Shown here one piece after another: positions 7,425-51,297 of a DNA stretch of 64,000 bases. This DNA is from Streptomyces sp. AM 4-1-1 (GTDB taxonomy: Bacteria > Actinomycetota > Actinomycetes > Streptomycetales > Streptomycetaceae): contig NZ_CP119145.1 in NCBI RefSeq assembly GCF_029167625.1, positions 7,104,658 through 7,168,657 on the forward strand, written 5' to 3'. The notes under the pieces were generated by a model. It was given only the letters and a program-made list of their open reading frames with translations. It did not search any database and had not been told where the DNA came from. The position numbers and the translations under genes were made by a program. The stretch's first letter is position 1, and every line of letters begins with the position of its first letter.

Positions 7425-9185
7425 ATGGAGATCACGACACCTGTCGTGACATCCTCGCCTGCGGTGAACGGACCCGAGGACGACTTACTCGACTGGCACG
7501 GCATCGACTGGGCCATCTGCGAGGAGAACGTACGGCGGCTGAGGCAGAGGATCTTCAAGGCAACGCAGGAAGGGGACCTGAAGAAGGTCCGCAACCTGCA
7601 GAAGCTCATGCTGCGAAGCCACAGCAACACGCTGGTCAGCGTGAAGCGGGTGACGCAGCAGAGCAGTGGTCGCATGACCGCTGGCATCGATGGGGAACGG
7701 GCCCTCACGCCGAAGGCGAGAGGCACGCTGGCGGCCGAGATCCATCGGTCGTCGATGCCCTGGAAGGCCAGGCCGGTCAAGCGAGTGTTCATCCCGAAGA
7801 GCAACGGGAAACAGCGACCGCTCGGCATTCCGGTCATCCGTGACCGGATTCTCCAGGCCCGCGTGAAGAACGCGCTGGAACCCGAGTGGGAAGCACGGTT
7901 CGAGCCGAGGTCCTATGGCTTTCGGCCCGGACGCAGCTGCCAGGACGCGATATCCGCGATCTTCTGGACGGTGAAGGGCAAGAACCCGAAGCGTCTGTGG
8001 GTCCTGGACGCGGACCTGGCGGCGGCGTTCGACCGCATCGACCACAACCACCTCATGACCATGCTCGGCCAGTTCCCCGCCAGGGACCTGGTCGCGGGCT
8101 GGCTGAAGGCGGGCGTGATCGACCGCGGCCGGTTCGCACCGACCGAGGAGGGAACTCCGCAGGGCGGTGTGATCAGCCCGCTGCTGCTGAACGTTGCTCT
8201 GCATGGACTTGAACAGGCCGCAGGGTGCCAATACACGGTGCGGGCCGGGCGCGAGCCCGGCGCCATGCCGGGCACTCCGGTGCTGGTGAGGTATGCCGAC
8301 GATTTCGTCGTGCTCTGCCACGACGAAGCAGAGGTGCACCAGGTCAGGGCTCGGCTGGAGGACTGGCTGGCGCCGAGAGGGCTTCGCTTCAACGAGGAGA
8401 AGACTCAGGTCGTCCACCTCGGTGAGGGGTTCGACTTCCTCGGCTTCACCGTCCGCCGCACGGGCGGAAAGCTGATCATCAAACCGAGCACAGCGGCTTG
8501 CGCGAGGCTCCGGGCGCGACTGCGGACCGAGGTCAAGGCCCTGCATGGGGCGAACGCCGAGGCCGTGTTGCGCAGGCTGATCCCGATCGTTCGCGGTTGG
8601 GCGGCCTACTACCGGGCGGTGGCGTCCACGACGACGTTCTCGTCGTTGGATCACTACATGTGGCGGTTGACCTTCAAATGGGCCAGACGCCGCCACCGCA
8701 ACAAGTCGAGGTACTGGGTCGTGGACCGGTACTTCGGAAGGTTCCACCCGTCCCGGCGTGATCGGTGGGTGTTCGGCGACCGCGACAGCGGTGCCTTCCT
8801 CATCAAATTCGCCTGGACCGGCATCGTCCGCCACCAGCTCGTCAAGGGCGGAGCGTCCCCGGACGACCCCGCATTGACCGGCTACTGGCGGGACCGCCGC
8901 CGCAGGAAAGCGCCGCCGCCGATGGACAAGACGAGTCTTGTCCTGGCGGTCCGGCAGCAGGGGCTCTGTCCTCTCTGCAAGCAGGCGCTGATCGTCGGAG
9001 CCGAGTACGAACCGGACAGCCCACGCGAGTGGATCAACTGGTTCGCGGCCTCGAAGAAGATGCTCCACAAGCATCACTTCACCTACCGGCGAGACGGCGG
9101 CACGGACGAGCGGACCAACCTTCGCCTCGTGCACTCCGAATGCCACCGCCAGCACCATGCTGGCGACGGCAAACGGATCACGTAA
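7425..9185 (+). CDS. ltrA: Group II intron reverse transcriptase/maturase with HNH endonuclease
   Basis: An intact protein of 586 residues. The RT domain carries GIDGERAL, RPLGIPVIRDRILQ, YGFRPGRSCQDA, a catalytic LDADLAAAFD, GTPQGGVISPLL and the YADD box (about residues 290-293). The maturase X domain follows (RGWAAYYRAV). The C-terminal part from about residue 515 is an HNH endonuclease with two zinc-binding C-x2-C type pairs (CPLC, then HKHHFTYRRDGG and HSECHRQHH). It binds the intron RNA, assists splicing and drives retrohoming by target-primed reverse transcription. All catalytic motifs look intact. Confidence 0.95.
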   Translation: MEITTPVVTSSPAVNGPEDDLLDWHGIDWAICEENVRRLRQRIFKATQEGDLKKVRNLQKLMLRSHSNTLVSVKRVTQQSSGRMTAGIDGERALTPKARGTLAAEIHRSSMPWKARPVKRVFIPKSNGKQRPLGIPVIRDRILQARVKNALEPEWEARFEPRSYGFRPGRSCQDAISAIFWTVKGKNPKRLWVLDADLAAAFDRIDHNHLMTMLGQFPARDLVAGWLKAGVIDRGRFAPTEEGTPQGGVISPLLLNVALHGLEQAAGCQYTVRAGREPGAMPGTPVLVRYADDFVVLCHDEAEVHQVRARLEDWLAPRGLRFNEEKTQVVHLGEGFDFLGFTVRRTGGKLIIKPSTAACARLRARLRTEVKALHGANAEAVLRRLIPIVRGWAAYYRAVASTTTFSSLDHYMWRLTFKWARRRHRNKSRYWVVDRYFGRFHPSRRDRWVFGDRDSGAFLIKFAWTGIVRHQLVKGGASPDDPALTGYWRDRRRRKAPPPMDKTSLVLAVRQQGLCPLCKQALIVGAEYEPDSPREWINWFAASKKMLHKHHFTYRRDGGTDERTNLRLVHSECHRQHHAGDGKRIT

Positions 9186-9219
9186 TCCTGCTGACCTGCG
9201 AAGCCCTCGTGGCTTGCTT

Positions 9220-9253
9220 GAGCCGGATGCGCTGAAAGGTGCACGTCCGGTTC
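9220..9253 (+). ncRNA. Group II intron domain V
   Basis: A 34-nt hairpin with the catalytic AGC at 9221-9223, a GAAA tetraloop and matched lower stem arms GAGCCGG and CCGGTTC. Domain VI (about 9258-9294) follows. This is the most conserved catalytic element of group II ribozymes. Confidence 0.88.
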
Positions 9254-9416
9254 TGAGGGGGCCGGGTCACGGCAACGTGATCCGGCTACCCGACCACAGG
9301 CCTTTACGTCTTCACCGGCCGCGCAGCAAGGGAGCCCAAGCTAGTTCGGTCAACGGGACATTCGCTGCCCCGTTCTTCAGCCGGAAGATTTCAAGTCCAG
9401 TGAGACGGTCGTGATG

Positions 9417-10661
9417 CTATGAGGTTTGTGGTGCGGGTTCCCTGCGCTTGGCTGGGTCGTTGATCCATGCCTGCTGGGGTATCCGGGGTGGTCGGGGGCG
9501 GCGGCCGAAGCGTTCGGGGTGGCGGATGTATGCGTCGGCGAGGGTGACGGCCCGCTGGTCGCGGACCTCCTCGGCGGTGCCGAAGTGCACGCTGGCCGGT
9601 GTGTGCCAGCCGATGCCCGAGTGCCGGTGTTCGTGGTTGTAGTACGCGATGAATGCCTCGAACCACTCGCGGGCATGGGCCAGCGAGTCGAATCGTTCGG
9701 GGTAGTCGGACATGTACTTCGTGGTCTTGAAGTGTGCCTCGCTGTAGGGGTTGTCGTTGGAGGTCTTCGGCCGCGAGTGCGACCGGGTGACGCCGAGGTC
9801 GACCAGCAGCTGCGAGACCCTCTTGGAGGTCATCGAGGTGCCGCGGTCGGCGTGCACGGTCTGGGGCACGATGCCGTTGCGGATGATGGTCTCGCGGATC
9901 AACTCCTCGGCCCGCACCGCTGATTCGGCCCGCTCAACGGTGTGGCCGACGATGTAGCGGCTGAAGATGTCGATGATGACGTAGGCGTGATACCAGGTGC
10001 CCTTGACCGGTCCGGCCGCCTTGGTGATGTCCCAGGTGAACACCTGCGAGGGTCCGGTTGCGACCAGCTCGGGCACTGCTTTGGCGGGATGAGCGGCCTG
10101 CCGTCGGCGCTCACCGGACTGACCCTGCTCGCGCAGGATCCGGTACATCGTCGAGACGGAGCAGTAATAGCGGCCGGCGTCCAACTCGCGGGCCCAGATC
10201 TGGGCGGGCGCCAGTTCGGCGTACTCGTCGCTGTTCATCAGTTCCAGGACGGCAGAGCGCTCCTGGTCCGTCAGGGCCGAGGGCTGCACCTGCGCGTGGG
10301 AGCGGGGTGCGCGGACTGTCGGGGGCTTGAGGCTGCGATAGTGCGTGGCACGTGAGCGACCGGTCAGCCGACACGCGGCCGTGATGCCCAGCTGAACCTC
10401 GACGCCGGTGAACGCCTCGTCCACGACAGGGACTGCGGCAGGCTTCAGTCCGCGCTCTCGGAGATCATTTCCAAGAGCGCGGAAGCTTTTCCCATCACCT
10501 CGAGTGCGGCCCTGTTCCGGGCCAGGTCCTTCTCCAGCCGTGCCACCTGCTGCCGCAGTTTCTCGTTCTCCACCTCCGCGGCGGACTTCTTCCCACGGGC
10601 CGGGCTCGTGCGGCGGTCGACCAGGTTCTCCAGGGCCCGGGCGTCCCGGGCGGCCCGCCAT
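9417..10661 (-). CDS. IS3-family transposase OrfB (copy 1), made by -1 frameshift
   Basis: The catalytic integrase domain begins at about residue 95 and shows VFTWDITKAAGP (first Asp), VHADRGTSMTSK (second Asp) and NPYSEAHFKTTK (Glu), the DDE triad of IS3 transposases. The first 70 or so residues in this frame overlap OrfA and are probably not translated independently. The slip likely occurs at the GGGAAAAG tract, fusing OrfA to GKSFRALGNDLRERGL. The reading frame is intact to its stop. Confidence 0.9.
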   Translation of the reverse strand: MAGRPGRPGPGEPGRPPHEPGPWEEVRRGGGERETAAAGGTAGEGPGPEQGRTRGDGKSFRALGNDLRERGLKPAAVPVVDEAFTGVEVQLGITAACRLTGRSRATHYRSLKPPTVRAPRSHAQVQPSALTDQERSAVLELMNSDEYAELAPAQIWARELDAGRYYCSVSTMYRILREQGQSGERRRQAAHPAKAVPELVATGPSQVFTWDITKAAGPVKGTWYHAYVIIDIFSRYIVGHTVERAESAVRAEELIRETIIRNGIVPQTVHADRGTSMTSKRVSQLLVDLGVTRSHSRPKTSNDNPYSEAHFKTTKYMSDYPERFDSLAHAREWFEAFIAYYNHEHRHSGIGWHTPASVHFGTAEEVRDQRAVTLADAYIRHPERFGRRPRPPRIPQQAWINDPAKRREPAPQTS

Positions 10662-10828
10662 TCCTTGACGTGCGAGTGGTAGAGCCGTTCCCGGCGCAGG
10701 ACCGCGCCCTTCTCGTTCCTGGGCGCCGCGTCGTACTCAGCGACGATCCGCAGCTTGTACTCCGAGGTGAAAGTGCGGCGCTTCGGCCTCGGTGCCGGGT
10801 CGGACCCGACCGGTTCAGTGCTGGTCAT
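10445..10828 (-). CDS. IS3-family transposase OrfA (copy 1)
   Basis: A protein of 127 residues with an N-terminal helix-turn-helix of the IS3 OrfA type (RRTFTSEYKLRIVAEYD) and a C-terminal leucine-zipper-like coiled coil (ENEKLRQQVARLEKDLARNR). It binds the element ends and regulates transposition. Its 3' end overlaps OrfB, which is read in the -1 frame, as usual in this family. Confidence 0.9.
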   Translation of the reverse strand: MTSTEPVGSDPAPRPKRRTFTSEYKLRIVAEYDAAPRNEKGAVLRRERLYHSHVKEWRAARDARALENLVDRRTSPARGKKSAAEVENEKLRQQVARLEKDLARNRAALEVMGKASALLEMISESAD

Positions 10829-13603: not shown

Positions 13604-13623
13604 GTGTTGACCGCGGTCAACAC
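13604..13623. promoter_or_regulatory. parS: Putative parS site 1 (20-bp palindrome), downstream of parB
   Basis: A perfect palindrome GTGTTGACCGCGGTCAACAC, lying 53 bp past the parB stop. It is identical to the three copies inside parB. Four identical palindromes clustered at a parAB locus are most simply the ParB-binding centromere. Confidence 0.8.
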
Positions 13624-13675
13624 ACCGTGGGTGCTGCCACGACGGGCCACGCTGATCGGGCCAGGAGGCGACCTG

Positions 13676-14874
13676 CTAGACGTGCTCTCGAAGAGCCTCG
13701 ATCAGAGCATTCAGCTCGGCTGTAGAGAGAGCCGAAGCGATCGTCGCCGCTTGAGCTGCTGGCGTCTCCCCGAGCTCCTTCATCAGGACCTGCGCGTACT
13801 CCTCAGCCTCCCCGGTGTGCTCCGCCGAGCGACCCTGAGACGGCACGGACGACTGAGCGGGCGGTTTGGAGACCGAGGAGCCCGAGTTGGCTGACGCCTG
13901 GCGCGCGGGCACCGGCGGGGAGCGGAGGTGTTGACCGCGGTCAACACCTCCGGCGCCTCGTCGCCCGGCTTCGTGCCTTCCGCCAACGACTCCGACGTGT
14001 TGACCGCGGTCAACACGGATGGCTGCCCATTCGTGGGGCCGCCCGCGCTGACGGTCTCCGTGTTGACCGCGGTCAACACGCCTCCGCTCTTGGCTGCCCG
14101 CAGCAGCTTCTTCTCTTCGTCCCGCTTCTGTGCTTCTGCCTCCCGGTGCGAGGCCAGGTGCTCCATGAGGTCGGCGCTGCTCAGACCTGGCTGAGCCTTG
14201 AGGCGACGAGCCAGCAGACGGCCTTCCCGTTCGGGCAGTACGCCGGCACTGAGCTTTTCCTGAATGCCTTCAGGCAGGGTGAGCAGGGCCAGCTGGTTGG
14301 TCACCCAGGCCTTGGACTTGCCCAGCCGCTCAGCCGCCCGAGTCTGGGCGCCGGCGTCGCCCTCTCCAGCGCAGACCTCTACCAGTGCTTGGACACCACG
14401 AGCCCGCTCGACGAGATCGAAGTCCTCACGATCGAGGTTCTCCTTGAGGAGAAAATCTACGAAGTCTTCCCGCGACGAGGCGAGATCGTTCCGCACCACG
14501 AAGTCGAGCGCCTCGAGCCCCACGTGATCCGCACTGCGGTAGCGGCGCTCCCCGTTCACGAGCACGTAGTCGGCCCCGCCGACGTGATCAGCGTGCTCGG
14601 GCCACAGGGACAGGTATGCATCGCGCGATACAGCGACACACGCTGCGAGCTGTACAGCCCGCAGCTCCTCACCGAAACGGGCCTTCTGCTCGTCCGTGCC
14701 GAAATTCCGCCGAGGGTTCAGGGGAGTGGGCTTCACCTCCCTCAGGCGGAGCCGCACCAGCTCGTACGACGGCACATCACCCTGCGCCACTGCTTTGGCC
14801 CGCCCACGGTCACTGCGACCGCGCGGCACCTTGTTGAACGATGACCCAGTCCCCAGACGGTCCGCGGCCTTCAT
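13676..14874 (-). CDS. parB: ParB centromere-binding protein carrying embedded parS sites; apparent frameshift near the 3' end
   Basis: The N-terminal ParB/Sulfiredoxin-like CTPase domain has LVNGERRYRSA, the GxRR box. A central HTH follows (RAAERLGKSKAWVTNQLALL). A low-complexity linker then contains three VLTAVNT heptapeptides encoded by the palindromes. The frame from 14874 stays open to 13783 but turns Arg-rich after TSAP. One extra base in the G4 run 13917-13920 (plus strand) would restore PPVPARQASANSGSS and a sensible C-terminal dimerisation-like helix (ALSTAELNALIEALREHV) ending at 13676. Start ATG 14874 overlaps the parA stop. Role: binds parS and stimulates the ParA ATPase for segregation. 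Confidence 0.88.
13928..13947. promoter_or_regulatory. parS: Putative parS site 2, inside parB (30-bp extended palindrome)
   Basis: The same 20-bp palindrome. Here the symmetry extends 5 bp further on each side (CGGAG...CTCCG, 13923-13952), giving the longest version in the cluster. It is translated in parB as VLTAVNT. Confidence 0.82.
13997..14016. promoter_or_regulatory. parS: Putative parS site 3, inside parB
   Basis: The same 20-bp palindrome, 69 bp from site 2, a whole number of codons. It is read in the parB frame as VLTAVNT. Confidence 0.82.
14060..14079. promoter_or_regulatory. parS: Putative parS site 4, inside parB
   Basis: The same 20-bp palindrome, 63 bp from site 3, again a whole number of codons and read as VLTAVNT. 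Confidence 0.82.
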
Positions 14875-16025
14875 CCCTTCACCGCCAGAGCCACAGTCCG
14901 CATCGCCTCGGACTGCTCACAGTTCGGCGCAGAGGAAAGCAACGGAGCCTTGAGACGGTTCGCTTCACGCTGCTCCTTCCGCTCAGGGACCACGGCCAGA
15001 ACCGGCGGATCACCGATGGCCTTCCAGCTTTCGAGGGACGACGTAGCGATGAAGCCCTTGCGGCTGTCGTACATGTTGACGACGAACCCCAACTTGGCGA
15101 TGGCCACGTCCAGGTCCTCCGAAAGGTCCTCGATCTGGTCGTACAGCATGTCGTAGGCGTCGGCCGAGCTGTCCTCTGCCAACACCGGGATCACCACGCC
15201 TGACGCGCTGGCTTCCTCACCGTCCCGCGTGCGGGCGTAGTAGAGCGCCGTGTCCATCGAGTAGCCCAGGCTGGGCGGACAGTCGATGACGATGAAGTCG
15301 AACTCGCTCTCCAGCGGCTCCAGCGCCTTCTCGAGGGCGATCTCCTTGATACGAACATGACGCGTCGTCGCCAGCTTCGCATCCAGCAGGAACGCGTCCT
15401 TGCACCCGGGCAGGAGGAACAGCCGGCCGCCGAAAGCACCCTCTTCTATCGGCACCAGCAGGTCACGCAGCGCACCCTTTCCCTCGCCAAGCATGTGCTT
15501 GGCCAGACTGGGCTCATCGATGGCGAGCATTTCGTAGCCAAGCTGCTTGGTCAGATGGCACTGAGGGTCGAAGTCGACGAGTAGGACGCGCTGGCCGATC
15601 TCCGCGAGAGCCTCCGCCACACCGGCTGACGTCGCCGTCTTACCGACACCGCCCTTCTGGTTCCCGAATACAAGACGCCGCGCACCGGTCGTGCGGGGGG
15701 CACGGCGGGGCGACGGGTGACTGTCGAGCCAAAGCCGGATCGACTGGGCGATGCCCTGGTTGAACGGGATCCCTCGGGCCTTGCAGTCGTCCTTGAACTC
15801 CCCGTAAAGGCCTGTCGGGAGATACGTGGCGAACGAACCGCCGCCCGACGTGTCGACCTGAGGGCGAGGAGCGTCGGCGCTGCGCCAGGCATGGACGCCT
15901 TCCGTAACGGCATCTTTGATATCCACGCCCAACTCTGCGGCACGGACCTTCAGTTCCTGTCGCAGCGGCGCGGGGAGCTTCGCAACTACCTTTTCCCGAT
16001 CATCGGGACTGTATGGGGCGGTCAT
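14871..16025 (-). CDS. parA: ParA partition ATPase
   Basis: A protein of 384 residues. Residues 1-115 form an N-terminal extension that may bind DNA for autoregulation (KVVAKLPAPLRQELKVRAAE). The deviant Walker A box follows (NQKGGVGKTATS, about 122-133), then FDPQCHLT and the Walker B segment DFIVIDCPPSLGYS (about 243-256). This is the type Ia/Ib ParA signature. It overlaps parB by 4 bp (ATGA), so the two are coupled. The protein positions ParB-parS complexes on the nucleoid and implies a low-copy replicon. The gene is intact. Confidence 0.95.
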   Translation of the reverse strand: MTAPYSPDDREKVVAKLPAPLRQELKVRAAELGVDIKDAVTEGVHAWRSADAPRPQVDTSGGGSFATYLPTGLYGEFKDDCKARGIPFNQGIAQSIRLWLDSHPSPRRAPRTTGARRLVFGNQKGGVGKTATSAGVAEALAEIGQRVLLVDFDPQCHLTKQLGYEMLAIDEPSLAKHMLGEGKGALRDLLVPIEEGAFGGRLFLLPGCKDAFLLDAKLATTRHVRIKEIALEKALEPLESEFDFIVIDCPPSLGYSMDTALYYARTRDGEEASASGVVIPVLAEDSSADAYDMLYDQIEDLSEDLDVAIAKLGFVVNMYDSRKGFIATSSLESWKAIGDPPVLAVVPERKEQREANRLKAPLLSSAPNCEQSEAMRTVALAVKG

Positions 16026-16443: not shown

Positions 16444-19275
16444 ATGCTGCGGCTGCGGGCCTGGCTGGAGCTATGGGCAGCGAGGGCCTTCGATTTCGTC
16501 GATGGTGAGGACAAAACGGGGATCTACCACCGGTGTGTGGAGTTCGCGGTTGATGGGCCTGCGACGGAGCGATTGCTCGGCAAGCGTGCGGGCGTAGACC
16601 GTGAGGCCGTTGTGGATCGGATGATGACGGCGCGGTACCGCCGCTACACCATCCTCCGCTGTCCCTCGCCCTTGCTCGACCGAGCGATCGAAGACCTGGC
16701 TGCGGCCCGGGATAAACACGAGCGAGCAGCACGAGCGACGCAGTGGAACTGGCGAGTGGTCTGCTCGCTGGTCGCCACCGTCTCGATGGTCCTGCTGATA
16801 TTCAGTGGCCTGCTCGCTCTGCTCATCGCAGTTGTGGCGGCAGCTGTCTCGATGGTCGGGCTGTACATCTGGCGCGGGTATGCGCTGTGGTCCAACCTGA
16901 GGCAGTGCCTGATAGCAGCAGGGCTCAAAGGCGCCTGGCTCGTTCAGCGCATCGAGGTAGGACTGTGCGCTGCACGCTGGGGTGAAGAGCTGCTTGAGAC
17001 AGGTACTGCTCCCGTGGTGGCCGACCTGGTCCGCCATATGCTGGGCGACGACCCCGACTCCCTCTTCATTCCGGACGACTACGAATGGGGCCTGCGCGCG
17101 CCTCGAGCGCCCGGCTTCGTCATCGAGAACGGGGCCCGGCGTCAACTCGAACGCAAGCTCACGCATCTTGAGGACGGCACCATCGCCGTCTGCGGACCGC
17201 GCGGTGCGGGCAAATCGACGCTGCTGGAGCAGTGCGTCAAGAAAGCCGGCTTTGGCGTGATCGTCCAGGCGCCGGCCACCTACGCTCCCCATGACTTCCT
17301 CCTGTCGCTGTCGGTCCAGCTGTGCGAAAAGTACATGCGGGCCCGGGGCTATGAGCCCACCGGTTTCGCGCGCCTGTCGCCCGCGCGCCGAGCACTGCGG
17401 CGAATATGGCTCCAGGTCAAACGGCTGAGCCGGTGGAGCTCCTTCGCGGTGCCCGCCACCGCCCTGGTGGTGCTGGGCCTGTCCGCCTCGATGCGGTCCT
17501 TCTACAAGCAGTACGCCACGTCCGCGTCGGACGCCGCGCACGCGTACACCGACGCGATTGGCCACGACGTCACGGCCATCTGGCAGGGCCACACCGTTGT
17601 CGCGAGCTTGGCCGTCACGATCGGCGGGATCGTCTGGTGGAAGTCACGGCATGAAGCCTGGCTGCCCCGCATGCTGGGTCGCCTGTGGATGCGCGGCGTC
17701 AGACCTATCGGTTTGCTCCTGGCCTGGGCATCCGCTGCCACTCTGCTGCTCGACGAACAGATACGCCAGCAGGCCCTAAACCTCCATATCGCCCAGCCCG
17801 AGGCTCTCTACCGCGCTGTCGGCTATGCAGGAGGGCTGCTGCTCGTGTGGTGGTTCTTGCGCTTCGTTCGTGATTCGGGAGTCGAGTTCCCTCTTGGAAG
17901 ATGGCACATCTTCCTAGAGAGAATCTTCCGCCCGATCAGCGCCGCCGCAGGAATTTACTTGGTGTTCTTCCTCATCACGAACCCGCAGATACGGTCCTTA
18001 CTGGCGGACCCAGAAAACCCGCTGCGACTGGCAGGGATTATCGCCGGAGTCCTGGTGTCGAAGTTGGGGGACTGGCAACCGCATGCGGAAGAACCCGAGT
18101 TGGTCACGCGATGCCGCAACCACCTCTACCGTCTTCAGACGATCCAACAGGTGACCAACGGCGTGACCACGGGGGGCGCTGCCCAGATCCTGAGCCTGGG
18201 CACCAACCACTCCGCGTCTGTGTCCACAGTCCCCCCGAACTACCCGGAGCTTGTTGAGGAATTCCGCGAACTGCTCAGGTCCATCGCCGTCGAGAGGACC
18301 GAAGCGGGCAGGACCGTCGTGATCGCCATCGACGAAGTAGACCGCTTGGGCGCGGACACCGATGCGCTCGCGTTCCTCCGGGAGATCAAAGCCATCCTGG
18401 GCGTTCCCCTGGTCCACTACTTGATCTCGGTCGCCGAGGACGTGGGAGCCGCCTTCGTCCGCAGGGGCCTTCCTCACAGGGACGCCACCGACAGTTCCCT
18501 GGACGACATCATCCATGTCCAGCCCAGCACCCTCAGCGACTCACGCGCCATCCTGGCCAAGCGCTCACAGACACTGAAGGAACCACACATCCTGCTCGCC
18601 CACGCTCTGTCAGGCGGCATCCTGCGCGACCTGCTCCGCTATGGCCTGCAACTCCGCGAGACACAGGACAAGACCCAGTCCTACGAACTCACAGACATCT
18701 CGCGGCAACTCATTCTGGAAGAACTCGCGGAAACCTTCGCCGGCTTCCGGACCCTGCTGAGCAAACTGCAGTGGTCGCATGACACCAACGGCATCCTCGC
18801 CTCTTTCCGCACGCTCAGCAGCTACTTGCGCGACCCCTGTCCGTGCGTCGAAGCGGATGTGGTGCGCACGCTTGATCACTTCGCCTTTCACGCCTACGAC
18901 GCCAGACCTCTTCTTGCGACCGTCGGCGACTCATCACATCGACCACCCGACGAACCAGAGATCAGCAGCAGTGCACGCCAGCTCATCGACGAAGCATCCA
19001 CGTACGCCTACTTCTCACTCACCCTGCTCGACATCTTCAGCACCGACGGACTTGAGCGCCGTAAGCAACTGGCAGCCGAGCACGGCCAGGACGGCGATCC
19101 TGAACGGCTTGCCGACGCACGGCAAGAACTCGGGATATCGCCTTACAGCGCCCGGCCTCTGATCGACAGCATTCGCAAGGCTTGGGCACTGTCTCTTGGA
19201 CCGGCCCCCGGTACTCGTCTCCCGGCATCGACCGTGAGGTGTCTCCGCCACAGAAGCTGCCCGAACATCCCATGA
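16444..19275 (+). CDS. Large membrane-anchored P-loop NTPase (KAP-like)
   Basis: A protein of 943 residues. Two hydrophobic helices lie at about 105-145. A Walker A box (CGPRGAGKSTLLEQC, about 250-264) follows, with further membrane segments between about 330 and 545. Walker B is VVIAIDEVDRLG (about 625-636). Transmembrane helices inserted between Walker A and B are the hallmark of KAP-family NTPases. The C-terminal third is helical and soluble. Some members act in phage defence, but the role here is not known. An excellent RBS supports ATG 16444. The gene is intact, lies alone and is unlike any neighbouring gene. Confidence 0.72.
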   Translation: MLRLRAWLELWAARAFDFVDGEDKTGIYHRCVEFAVDGPATERLLGKRAGVDREAVVDRMMTARYRRYTILRCPSPLLDRAIEDLAAARDKHERAARATQWNWRVVCSLVATVSMVLLIFSGLLALLIAVVAAAVSMVGLYIWRGYALWSNLRQCLIAAGLKGAWLVQRIEVGLCAARWGEELLETGTAPVVADLVRHMLGDDPDSLFIPDDYEWGLRAPRAPGFVIENGARRQLERKLTHLEDGTIAVCGPRGAGKSTLLEQCVKKAGFGVIVQAPATYAPHDFLLSLSVQLCEKYMRARGYEPTGFARLSPARRALRRIWLQVKRLSRWSSFAVPATALVVLGLSASMRSFYKQYATSASDAAHAYTDAIGHDVTAIWQGHTVVASLAVTIGGIVWWKSRHEAWLPRMLGRLWMRGVRPIGLLLAWASAATLLLDEQIRQQALNLHIAQPEALYRAVGYAGGLLLVWWFLRFVRDSGVEFPLGRWHIFLERIFRPISAAAGIYLVFFLITNPQIRSLLADPENPLRLAGIIAGVLVSKLGDWQPHAEEPELVTRCRNHLYRLQTIQQVTNGVTTGGAAQILSLGTNHSASVSTVPPNYPELVEEFRELLRSIAVERTEAGRTVVIAIDEVDRLGADTDALAFLREIKAILGVPLVHYLISVAEDVGAAFVRRGLPHRDATDSSLDDIIHVQPSTLSDSRAILAKRSQTLKEPHILLAHALSGGILRDLLRYGLQLRETQDKTQSYELTDISRQLILEELAETFAGFRTLLSKLQWSHDTNGILASFRTLSSYLRDPCPCVEADVVRTLDHFAFHAYDARPLLATVGDSSHRPPDEPEISSSARQLIDEASTYAYFSLTLLDIFSTDGLERRKQLAAEHGQDGDPERLADARQELGISPYSARPLIDSIRKAWALSLGPAPGTRLPASTVRCLRHRSCPNIP

Positions 19276-48856: not shown

Positions 48857-50205
48857 TCAGGCGCCCGTCTTTCGGGGTCGTGGATACCGCTGAATAGCAT
48901 CTGTGTCAAATTCTTCTAGGCCGATTACGCTGTTCGCGTACTGCAGGGATATGCTCAAATCCTCGATCTGCTTAAGTGGAGTGATGTCAATATTCTTAGA
49001 TAAGAAATTGTAGCAATTGATGAGTACGCTTCTTAGGTTAGGAAAAATATACGGGATTAGGTGTATCTGTGTATCTGTATCGGTGACTGACAACTGAAGG
49101 CGTGTCACGTTGAGCATCGGGGTGGCCTGTGCCAGATCAAACTCGGAGATAAAAAGGTCGGTCAGTTTTGGCAGCGAGGAGATTTCTCGCCACTCCGCTG
49201 GGGTCGGTCCCGAGTTGATGACCAATTTTTCCAAAAGTTGCCACTTTGAGATGCCTTCTAGTGAGGCGTCGATCGTGCGGACTAGGCGTAGTTCGGTTAA
49301 GCCCGGTGGTGCGGGCATCTCCTCAAGCCTGTTCCAAGGCAATCGAGTGTAGAGAGACAGCTCGGAGAGTTCTGGAAGGAGAGCCAAAGCATCGAAAGAG
49401 ACTGCATCCGGAAAGCGGAGGAGGCTCAAAGATGTCAGTGGTAGTCCTGCGAGGTCTTCAATGTGTGTGAGTTGGCTGCACTCGGACAGGGTGAGTTCTC
49501 TCAAGGCGGGTAGACGGTGCACAAATTGCAAATCAGCTAGCAAGCTGCCTGCGTCGATTCGGAGTCTCTGGGTGTGTTCGGGAGAGAGGTGTTCGATTAT
49601 TTCTTCGTCGGCGAAAGCTTCTCCGAAGTTGACGTCGAGGATGGGTTTTAGCGCCTGCAAGGCGTTGCGCTGGTCATTGGTATTTACGACAAGGGTTAGG
49701 CGGTCCTTGACGGGGAGTAGGATCTCCCGCGCATAGGGAAGCGATTCGAAGTTGCCCCAGCCATTGACGAGTTCGTAGGGTACTGGTCCGGAACTCAGTG
49801 ACTGGGTGAAGTTGCTGAGGAAGGCGTAGGCGTGATCGCCTCCGATGGTGGCGGCAGTCTGGATGACAGCGCCTACTTCGTCATACTCCAGGTCTTCAGG
49901 CCCCGGTAGCAGGTCCAGAATGCCCGGTCCGAGCGCCGCAAGACCTGTCGCTTCTTCCGGTGAGCGGGGCGGCATCAGAACACGCGCATGGTGTTCGACC
50001 AGTTTGCGGACGGCGGGTTCGATTTCTGTGGCGTACTGCAGGCTGGCAGCCGCCAGGAGGTGAAGTCTGCTCCTGTGCTCAGTCTCGGCGTCACCGCGTT
50101 CGATGAGTCGGCGGAGCAGATCAGCGCTTTCGGTGGGGCGGGCGTGGGCGACGGCCATGCGTACGACGTCTTCCCATTGGTCGTCATGGGCATTGTTGAC
50201 GACTA
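48857..50205 (-). pseudogene. XRE-NACHT-LRR defence gene, 3' part (leucine-rich repeats)
   Basis: This part reads VVNNAHDDQWEDVVRMAVAH, a helical linker, and then about ten leucine-rich repeats (LPALRELTLSECSQLTHIED, LPELSELSLYTRLPWNRLEE, LPKLTDLFISEFDLAQATPM), ending RYPRPRKTGA. It continues in frame from the NACHT half at 51335-52894 when the IS630 element and one TA are removed. The sequence is visibly richer in A and T than its surroundings (for example 48960-49100), which suggests a foreign origin for the LRR segment. Confidence 0.85.
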
Positions 50206-51297
50206 GTGTCCTGAGTCGTTAATTCGTGTGCAGTATGCGGCGAGTGTGTCGAGGATGTCGTCGGCGGTCTTCGTCCAGACGAACGGCTTGGGGTTCTTGT
50301 TCCACTCGTTGATCCAGCGGCGGATGTCGCGTTCGAGTTCGATGACGCTGCGGTGGGCCGAGCGGCGGAGTTTGCGGGAGGTCAGCTCGGCGAACCAGCG
50401 TTCGACGAGGTTGAGCCAGGACGCCGAGGTGGGGGTGAAGTGCAGGTGGAAGCGGGGATGCCGCAGCAGCCACTTCTTGACCGGTTCGGTCTTGTGGGTG
50501 GCGTAGTTGTCCAGGACCAGGTGAAGTTCGAGGTCCTTGGGGACGGCGGCGTCGATGACCTTCAGGAAGCGGAGGAACTCCTGGTGGCGGTGGCGGCGGT
50601 AGTGCTGGGCGATGACTGATCCGGAGGCGATGTCGAGGGCGGCGAACAGGCTGGTCGTGCCGTGCCGGACGTAGTCGTGGGTCATCTTCGCCGGCGTGGC
50701 CGGTGCCATCGGCAGGACGGGCTGGGTTCGGTCCAGGGCCTGGATCTGCGACTTCTCGTCCACCGCCAGGACCAGCGCGTTCTCCGGCGGCGACAGGTAA
50801 ATGCCCACCACGTCACGGACCTTGGTCACGAACTGCGGATCGGTCGACAGCTTCCACGTCTCCACGATGTGGGGCTTGAGGCCGAAGGCCCGCCAGATCC
50901 GCGAGACGGCCGACTGCGACATGCCCTGCGCCTGGGCCATCGAACGTGTCGACCAGTGCGAATCGCCTGTTGGTGGGCTCTGGCCGAGCGTCCTGGCGAC
51001 CATGGCTTCGACCTGCTCGTCCGTGATCTTCCGCGGTGCACCCGAACGCGGCCGGTCCACCAGGCCCTCCAGCCGGTCCGCGACGAACCGGGACCGCCAC
51101 TTACGCACCGTCTCCCGCGAGACACCCAGGTCGTCCGCGACCTGGGCGTTCGACCGGTCCTCCGCGCACGCCAGCACGATCCTCGACCGCAGAACCAGTG
51201 CCTGCGACGCAGTCTGCTTGCGCAACCAGCCCCGCAGGACCCTGCGTTCGTGATCGGACAGCTCCAGCGGCAACGGCTTCGGACCAGGCATCGCCAC
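50203..51297 (-). CDS. IS630-family transposase
   Basis: An intact protein of about 364 residues. The N-terminal part has paired HTH domains (NAQVADDLGVSRETVRKWRS, KITDEQVEAMVARTL). The catalytic domain shows ALVLAVDEKSQIQALDRTQP (first Asp), HLVLDNYATHKTEPV (second Asp) and SASWLNLVERWFAEL (Glu), the DDE triad of IS630/Tc1 elements. GTG 51297 or ATG 51291 starts it. The stop TAG at 50203-50205 uses the flanking TA plus the next host base, so the last codon is supplied by the target site. Confidence 0.93.
   Translation of the reverse strand: MAMPGPKPLPLELSDHERRVLRGWLRKQTASQALVLRSRIVLACAEDRSNAQVADDLGVSRETVRKWRSRFVADRLEGLVDRPRSGAPRKITDEQVEAMVARTLGQSPPTGDSHWSTRSMAQAQGMSQSAVSRIWRAFGLKPHIVETWKLSTDPQFVTKVRDVVGIYLSPPENALVLAVDEKSQIQALDRTQPVLPMAPATPAKMTHDYVRHGTTSLFAALDIASGSVIAQHYRRHRHQEFLRFLKVIDAAVPKDLELHLVLDNYATHKTEPVKKWLLRHPRFHLHFTPTSASWLNLVERWFAELTSRKLRRSAHRSVIELERDIRRWINEWNKNPKPFVWTKTADDILDTLAAYCTRINDSGH

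Follow-up and report, generated by a model that had tools for sequence, protein, structure and literature searches.

Can a centromere be written into the coding sequence of the protein that binds it? The question is raised by a partition locus in the 64,000-nucleotide stretch of Streptomyces sp. AM 4-1-1 DNA analyzed here (the window), which forms the right end of a 7,168,657-bp (7.17-Mb) linear chromosome contig. The window holds four exact copies of a 20-bp palindrome, GTGTTGACCGCGGTCAACAC (Table 1), and 100 dinucleotide shuffles of the window gave no chance copy. Three copies lie within parB, in frame, separated by steps of 69 and 63 bp and each read as VLTAVNT; in these respects the original prediction, made from the sequence alone, is borne out by translation of the open reading frame. 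Its further suggestion that all spacings are multiples of three holds for the in-gene steps, but the 324-bp step from copy 3 to the non-coding copy 4 has no such meaning, as it measures 325 bp at the other chromosome end and 326 bp in the related locus L009. The fourth copy, said to lie just past the stop codon, is 52 bp beyond the stop of the relatives' reading frame (13676-13678); the ORF as read in the window ends at 13783, out of frame.

Table 1. Features of the partition locus, in window coordinates.
Feature	Position	Strand	Remarks
parA	14871..16025	-	AAA_31, CbiA; 4-bp overlap with parB
parB as read in the window	13783..14874	-	363 aa, HTH_ParB domain; last part out of frame relative to relatives P0001-P0014
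GERR motif, ParB CTP-binding domain	14542..14553	-	from the translation
ParB recognition-helix region, residues 184-194 (LGKSKAWVTNQ)	14293..14325	-	residue 188 is the equivalent of Caulobacter R173 (alignment)
Palindrome copy 1, putative parS	14060..14079	.	within parB, VLTAVNT
Palindrome copy 2, putative parS	13997..14016	.	within parB, VLTAVNT
Palindrome copy 3, putative parS	13928..13947	.	within parB, VLTAVNT
ParB linker remainder and C-terminal domain, relatives' frame	13676..13916	-	window sequence compared with relatives
Palindrome copy 4, putative parS	13604..13623	.	non-coding, 52 bp beyond the stop codon of the relatives' frame

The gene adjoining parB encodes a ParA-type ATPase, with Pfam matches to AAA_31 (1.3e-28) and CbiA (1.3e-18). 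The ParB translation matches HTH_ParB above the cut-off (1.7e-10), scores 22.3 bits for ParB_N, under the cut-off of 26.3, and contains NGERRYRS, that is, the GERR motif, whose role in ParB CTP binding is described in PMC12207404 (this and the other PMC sources are drawn on in excerpt). Sequence and structure searches with a relative, P0001, return Spo0J, ParB and Noc chains. Judged from these domains and motifs, the locus would be classed as a type I, HTH-ParB ParABS system, combining a ParA ATPase, an HTH ParB, a GERR motif and palindromes that fit the recognition helix. The AlphaFold model of P0001 is weak overall (mean pLDDT 61.4, pTM 0.43). In it the recognition helix spans residues 188-199, and residues 265-353 lie mostly below pLDDT 50; the three repeats of this protein begin within that segment, at 266, 287 and 310, and the linker looks disordered in the model. 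The C-terminal helices that follow (354-398) are confident within this otherwise weak model; in the window, this part of the protein is in another frame.

The original prediction took the replicon to be a plasmid, which turned out to be wrong: the locus sits at a chromosome end and is duplicated in the terminal inverted repeat. A genome scan allowing up to two mismatches found four further copies of GTGTTGACCGCGGTCAACAC at the left chromosome end (50,100-50,576) and none elsewhere. The inverted repeat is about 51.7 kb long (window 12305-64000 against contig 1-51876). Its arms differ little over window 12-52 kb, by 15 mismatches and 19 indels, of which 18 involve one base, and have diverged at 52-60 kb, where 633 mismatches and 127 indels separate them. 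The arrangement resembles a partition locus of plasmid type, with one copy near each chromosome end. The chromosomal-type parS, GTTTCACGTGAAAC, occurs as 17 exact sites at 3.45-3.90 Mb on the same contig; the window palindrome is a different sequence, as had been predicted, and its identification with the chromosomal parS was rejected. Elsewhere in the window, a 943-aa ORF beside parA (16444-19275) has P-loop ATPase matches (AAA_22, AAA_16), and the stretch 7425-10828 contains, judged by eye, an ORF resembling a group II intron reverse transcriptase and, adjoining it, ORFs that are IS3-type transposase-like.

The end of parB requires comment. As read in the window, the ORF finishes out of frame relative to its relatives, and their C-terminal part is legible in another window frame, up to the stop codon noted above. 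Within this C-terminal stretch a single base separates the two chromosome ends; the left end also shows one-base differences of its own in parB and in parA, and the 4-kb bin with parAB differs from end to end by 1 mismatch and 4 one-base indels. Because indels outnumber mismatches in coding DNA, the balance leans towards a sequencing error. A firm verdict of assembly error is weakened by the location of most of the 124 one-base indels (among 147 indels in the full inverted repeat) in the diverged 52-60 kb part; only 27 of the 124 adjoin at least two identical bases. Decay of a captured locus could also have produced the difference.

The comparison with related loci covered 115 parB loci. Of these, 96 came from 100 genome-drawn stretches hand-picked from the listed matches of a ParA-based search (L086, L126, L137 and L138 have no parB), and 19 from plasmid or genome records retrieved by similarity at the DNA or protein level; L006 and L007, which the 20-mer itself brought up, are given lower weight. 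In four plasmid records the alignment spans 80% or more of the locus. Each locus was assigned its most repeated palindrome, a choice that favors loci with clear arrays. Five loci (L105, L108, L140, L141 and L155) have no assigned site, a repeated palindrome in L140 having been discarded by hand, and in four (L059, L066, L074 and L157) the site was set by hand where the automatic rule gave none. Gene limits run from stop to stop, and 5' extensions count as gene. Two single exact copies of GTGTTGACCGCGGTCAACAC were also met, at 4708 in L005 (a Planctomycetota contig) and at 6337 in L008 (Streptomyces sp. NBC_01446), where no ParB ORF was found.

The repeats are present in close homologues of the window parB, so that the prediction of a shared coding and DNA function stands on this point. 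The close family (32 loci: L006, L007, L009-L016, L051-L068, L074, L082, L143 and L145) has five kinds of half-site, of which four are read within parB: GTTGACC as LTAVN, GTTGTCC as LSADN, TTTGTCC as LSADK and TTTACC as FTAVK. The fifth, GTTGTAC, lies only downstream in L051, outside parB, and in L014 and L082, where the reading frame differs, a few GTTGTCC copies are in other frames. From type to type both arms of the palindrome differ symmetrically, and copies inside and outside one gene share one type, save for stray matches with three mismatches. Downstream copies like that of the window occur in L006, L007 and L009-L013, at +38 to +125. In more distant parAB loci the palindromes are 13 bp long and their centre base is free; here too they often lie in the parB linker, and they are built on the half-sites ATTACG, ATCACG, TTAACG, ATAACG, CTAACG, CTTACG and others.

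Is it the DNA or the peptide that is conserved in these repeats? Repeat peptides were selected by amino-acid pattern, and their codons were then resampled according to the codon usage of the same gene. About two perfect palindromes are expected from codon choice; 190 of 205 were found, in a sample that is not blind, since the patterns were taken from sites already seen, but in which codon choice was free. The excess is found in both families: in the close one, perfect 16-bp palindromes account for 71 of 79 peptides, where codon choice predicts 0.46 and never gave more than 4 in 2000 resamplings; in the distant one, perfect 13-bp palindromes account for 119 of 126, where 1.55 are predicted and 500 resamplings never gave more than 6. 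Were VLTAVNT and its kin instead a functional linker motif under selection, with the DNA repeat secondary, one might expect what an alignment of 40 relatives does display, namely repeat residues that are almost the sole conserved islands of the linker, and also the use of one frame by most types even where two or three are usable (TTGACC, TTTACC and most TTGTCC). But such a motif would not fix the codons far beyond the peptide, nor let LTAVN, LSADN, LSADK, FTAVK, VNxVN, DNxVI, YHxVI and LSRRD interchange according to the DNA half-site, nor place copies of the same type outside the gene. A single palindrome, ATCACGnCGTGAT, yields YHxVI in 11 copies and LSRRD, through another frame, in 25. The step from LTAVN to LSADN, one mild change plus valine to aspartate, is predicted by dyad symmetry and not by a peptide motif.

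The frame preference has a partial explanation of its own. TTA is the bldA-dependent codon of Streptomyces, and 199 of 201 in-gene copies are read in frames free of stops and TTA, counting as clean four ATAACT copies whose centre base is C. The sole exceptions are two TTAACG sites of L136, which lie in a TTA-containing frame. ATCACG has two clean frames and uses both; TTGACC and TTTACC have two each and use one; TTGTCC has three, one of which accounts for 48 of 51 copies. The clean-frame rule thus explains the choice of frame in part, since these last three types use mostly one of several clean frames, and common descent may lie behind the remaining preference. Selection on the peptide was rejected on the codon tests and on the reading of one palindrome as two peptides, and we regard it as very improbable; the DNA, rather than the peptide, appears to be what is conserved.

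If the palindromes are binding sites for the protein in whose gene they lie, their sequence should follow its recognition helix. Five helix signatures occur in the close family (SKA or SRA..N, DRS..N, SPS..N, SPG or SAG..Q, and DRS..H), and the kind of site agrees with the signature in 33 of 33 rows, window included. Among 120 proteins listed from 505 matches, 107 have a recognized repeat peptide, which agrees with the helix in every case: DRS with LSADN in 86, and SKA/SRA with LTAVN in 21, counting P0024, read by eye after the pattern had missed it. P0099 (ARS..N, FSADN) fits no class. The repeat peptide is absent from 12 of the 120, all with helix DRS..H (P0030, P0038, P0040 and nine others); in L051 and L185, which have this helix, GTTGTAC sites lie outside the gene.

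Over the wider sample, 109 loci (L136 has no alignable helix) fall into 34 helix classes, 15 of which have at least two members (90 loci). Each of these 15 classes has a single half-site over bases h1-h5; base h6 varies in three of them. The outermost base follows residue 188—K or R with G (27/27), Q with A (42/42), S with C (5/5), P with T (23/23), and A, D, E or G with T (10) or C (2)—with base 1 of the 13-bp sites equated post hoc with base 1 of the 16-bp sites, the agreement within each group being independent of that choice. A plain rule for residue 189 fails in L151 (SPS..H, TTGACC). In Caulobacter ParB, R173 contacts guanine 1 of parS, and the glutamine of Noc at this position reads adenine 1 (PMC7383237); by alignment, these contacts would be instances of the same rule.

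A held-out test was made with rules written down before 40 hand-picked loci were fetched from newly met genomes. One (L205) has no parB, and six of the other 39 have no repeated palindrome and fall outside both rule tests. Residue 188 predicted the outer base in 33 of 33 loci, under a rule that loosely allows either T or C when this residue is A, D, E or G. Bases h1-h5 were predicted by helix class in all 25 loci of classes already seen, eight loci belonging to new classes; many of these loci are close kin of training loci and do not count as independent events. In-gene copies were found in 29 of 39 parBs. All no-repeat loci but L200 were examined with the half-site of the matching helix class (for L194, of the most similar class), and all five hold the expected site, perfect and in frame, inside parB. 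The training loci L105 and L108, searched likewise for the half-site of their helix class, held none. The signature of L221 is mostly like those of the ATCACG classes, with A in place of Q at residue 188, and its site is TTCACG.

On a tree built without the helix, which carries a long-branch warning and places L015 weakly, the half-site type changes at least 16 times. Phylogenetically independent pairs, each compared for one residue-base pairing, agree in 4/4, 1/1, 2/3 and 2/2 cases, then in 4/4 and 1/1, and none point the opposite way; they are few and partly overlapping, and none of these comparisons can reach 0.05. The parS reading is argued from the codon tests, the structure-predicted agreement of residue with base, and the held-out test together. 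On this evidence the palindromes are highly likely to serve as parS for the ParB encoded by the same gene, and those of the window are very probably parS sites. The comparative evidence likewise supports the original prediction that the sites would serve as parS and as linker code at once.

Two further readings were weighed. Hairpins in the parAB mRNA would also be preserved by symmetric changes, which keep the stem; the window repeat folds at -10.5 kcal/mol, and z-scores are -2.7 or lower in five of the other six types tested. The TTAACG-type site, however, reaches only -1.6 kcal/mol (z -1.2), and a hairpin gives no reason to expect the sites to agree, base by base, with a ParB recognition helix. 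The hairpin reading was rejected on that agreement and in part on the weak TTAACG-type folding, and there is very little chance that it is right. Recent, functionless tandem duplication might seem to suit the more regular arrays, such as that of L146, with 12 copies (the highest number) at 39-bp steps, but it would leave neither codons fixed beyond the peptide nor arrays that differ symmetrically, in step with the helix; we consider it extremely unlikely.

The distribution of the sites also points to the partition locus. Their density is 6.57 per kb in the linker-coding stretch of parB (180 sites), 0.14 in its N-terminal and HTH part, 0.34 in its last 45 codons and 0.16 in parA; in the flanks it is 1.76 per kb just downstream of parB and 1.31 in the 0.5 kb upstream of parA. 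Seen on the scale of whole replicons, too, the sites gather around the par locus: of the 38 GTTGWCC sites in eight whole plasmid records, 37 are no farther than about 5 kb from parAB, and NZ_CP109189 has one site of the other type about 20 kb away. At least one in-gene copy is present in 94 of the 110 loci with an assigned palindrome, and at least two in 55; for genome-drawn parB loci the counts are 78 and 45 of 96, the former becoming 75 when hand-set loci are set aside. Embedding is therefore common but not obligatory, as 16 of the 110 loci, and 10 of the 39 held-out parBs under the blind criterion, have no in-gene copy. In L142, TTTACGnCGTAAA sites and companion palindromes recur every 151 bp downstream of parB. 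The sample includes two parAB loci from outside the Streptomycetaceae, L155 and L156; the latter, on the Rhodococcus plasmid pLW1, has 14 TTACCGCGGTAA sites in an array upstream of parA and none within parB.

The palindromes could alternatively be operators of autoregulation and not centromeres, with ParB bound in its own gene blocking transcription of parAB. KorB-type ParBs are repressors, KorB turns up among both sequence and structure hits, and the sites upstream of parA and downstream of parB would fit such a role. Linker copies far downstream of the promoter would, however, be odd operators, and the sites around and inside parB of SCP1 were mapped as parS, with spreading over 15-20 kb (PMC13245405). 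The two roles can coexist; as a replacement for the centromere reading, autoregulation appears unlikely.

For the palindromes as parS sites, the following mechanism is proposed. ParB dimers would load on the in-gene palindromes, close as a CTP clamp and spread over the parAB operon, and ParA would move the resulting ParB-parS complex. A disordered linker could tolerate translated copies of the palindrome provided that the frame lacks stops and the rare codon TTA, and VLTAVNT-like repeats would then be mainly a by-product of the DNA sites. Coverage of the gene by its own ParB during loading is plausible by analogy with the ChIP-seq results for SCP1. Sites within the gene would make protein and target one inherited unit, so that a change of specificity could survive when helix and array change together.

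On the whole it seems likely, if less than firmly established, that in Streptomyces plasmids the centromere is generally carried in the parB code, that the disordered segment is kept chiefly as a carrier of binding sites, and that specificity is legible from one gene through a natural recognition code (residue 188: K/R-G, Q-A, S-C, P-T). If so, a switch of specificity would mean rewriting, in one gene, both the recognition helix and several coding sites at the same time, and the reading frame of the sites would be limited by stops and by a developmentally regulated codon, TTA. The arrangement would be a clear case, over many loci, of the same letters spelling both protein and a structural DNA element, here a centromere array. 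With protein and target in one gene, a sequenced plasmid would often yield a matched ParB-parS pair, making specificity, incompatibility and switch paths testable from sequence, and predicted parS sites can be offered for many uncharacterized Streptomyces linear plasmids and chromosome ends. There is also a caution, in that repeated linker motifs and conservation scores in such proteins can reflect DNA function.

The window parB, with its three in-frame, putative parS copies, belongs with several published cases of parS inside a ParB-type gene, and the original prediction, which knew of no description of this exact arrangement, holds for the translated multi-copy array but not for a single internal site. 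No description of the multi-copy array was found in the literature searched (mainly open-access text), and the half-sites and repeat peptides, sought as literal text, were found in no paper there. The closest system is SCP1 of Streptomyces coelicolor, a linear plasmid whose parABS1 and parABS2 likewise have HTH-ParB proteins with a divergent CTP pocket; ParB1 and ParB2 bind parS by ChIP-seq and BLI, and CTP hydrolysis and spreading have been demonstrated (PMC13245405). Its parS sites, mapped by ChIP-seq, are inverted repeats too, of 13 and 19 bp, and they are likely kin to the 13-bp group described here, SCP1 being represented in this comparison by its published description. Both parB1 and parB2 hold one internal parS, which the authors recoded out for complementation; its absence, they suggest, may be the reason why complementation of a parB1 deletion was partial (PMC13245405). 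Unlike the window, SCP1 is described, in the available portions of that report, with one internal site per gene and no repeated peptide.

Other systems share part of the arrangement. In the ParATS system of SCP2, parS lies in the coding sequence of the ParB-like parT, but as a single internal 18-bp inverted repeat recognized by a CTP-independent protein (PMC12260392). Bacillus subtilis has a chromosomal site, parS-359, within parB; this is one site, and the excerpted account mentions neither repeats nor a linker (PMC4442127). The repABC replicons carry parS within the operon or close to it, the 5' end of repB being one of the places, and their authors suggest selection of parS within coding sequences; they form another replicon family, for which the consulted part of the paper describes no translated array in the linker of a ParB homologue (PMC9040568). 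The recognition code has its nearest counterpart in the ParB/Noc switch, where residue 173 also reads base 1, arginine with G in parS and glutamine with A in NBS, though between two protein families with separate sites (PMC7383237); here the pairs occur among related loci with in-gene sites, and serine with C and proline with T are added. A single parS inside a ParB-type gene is thus already known from SCP1, SCP2 and B. subtilis. What is new, relative to the literature searched, is the translated array, its prevalence, and its co-variation with the recognition helix, and a probable centromere array in the linker code of its own partition gene is a real and common arrangement.
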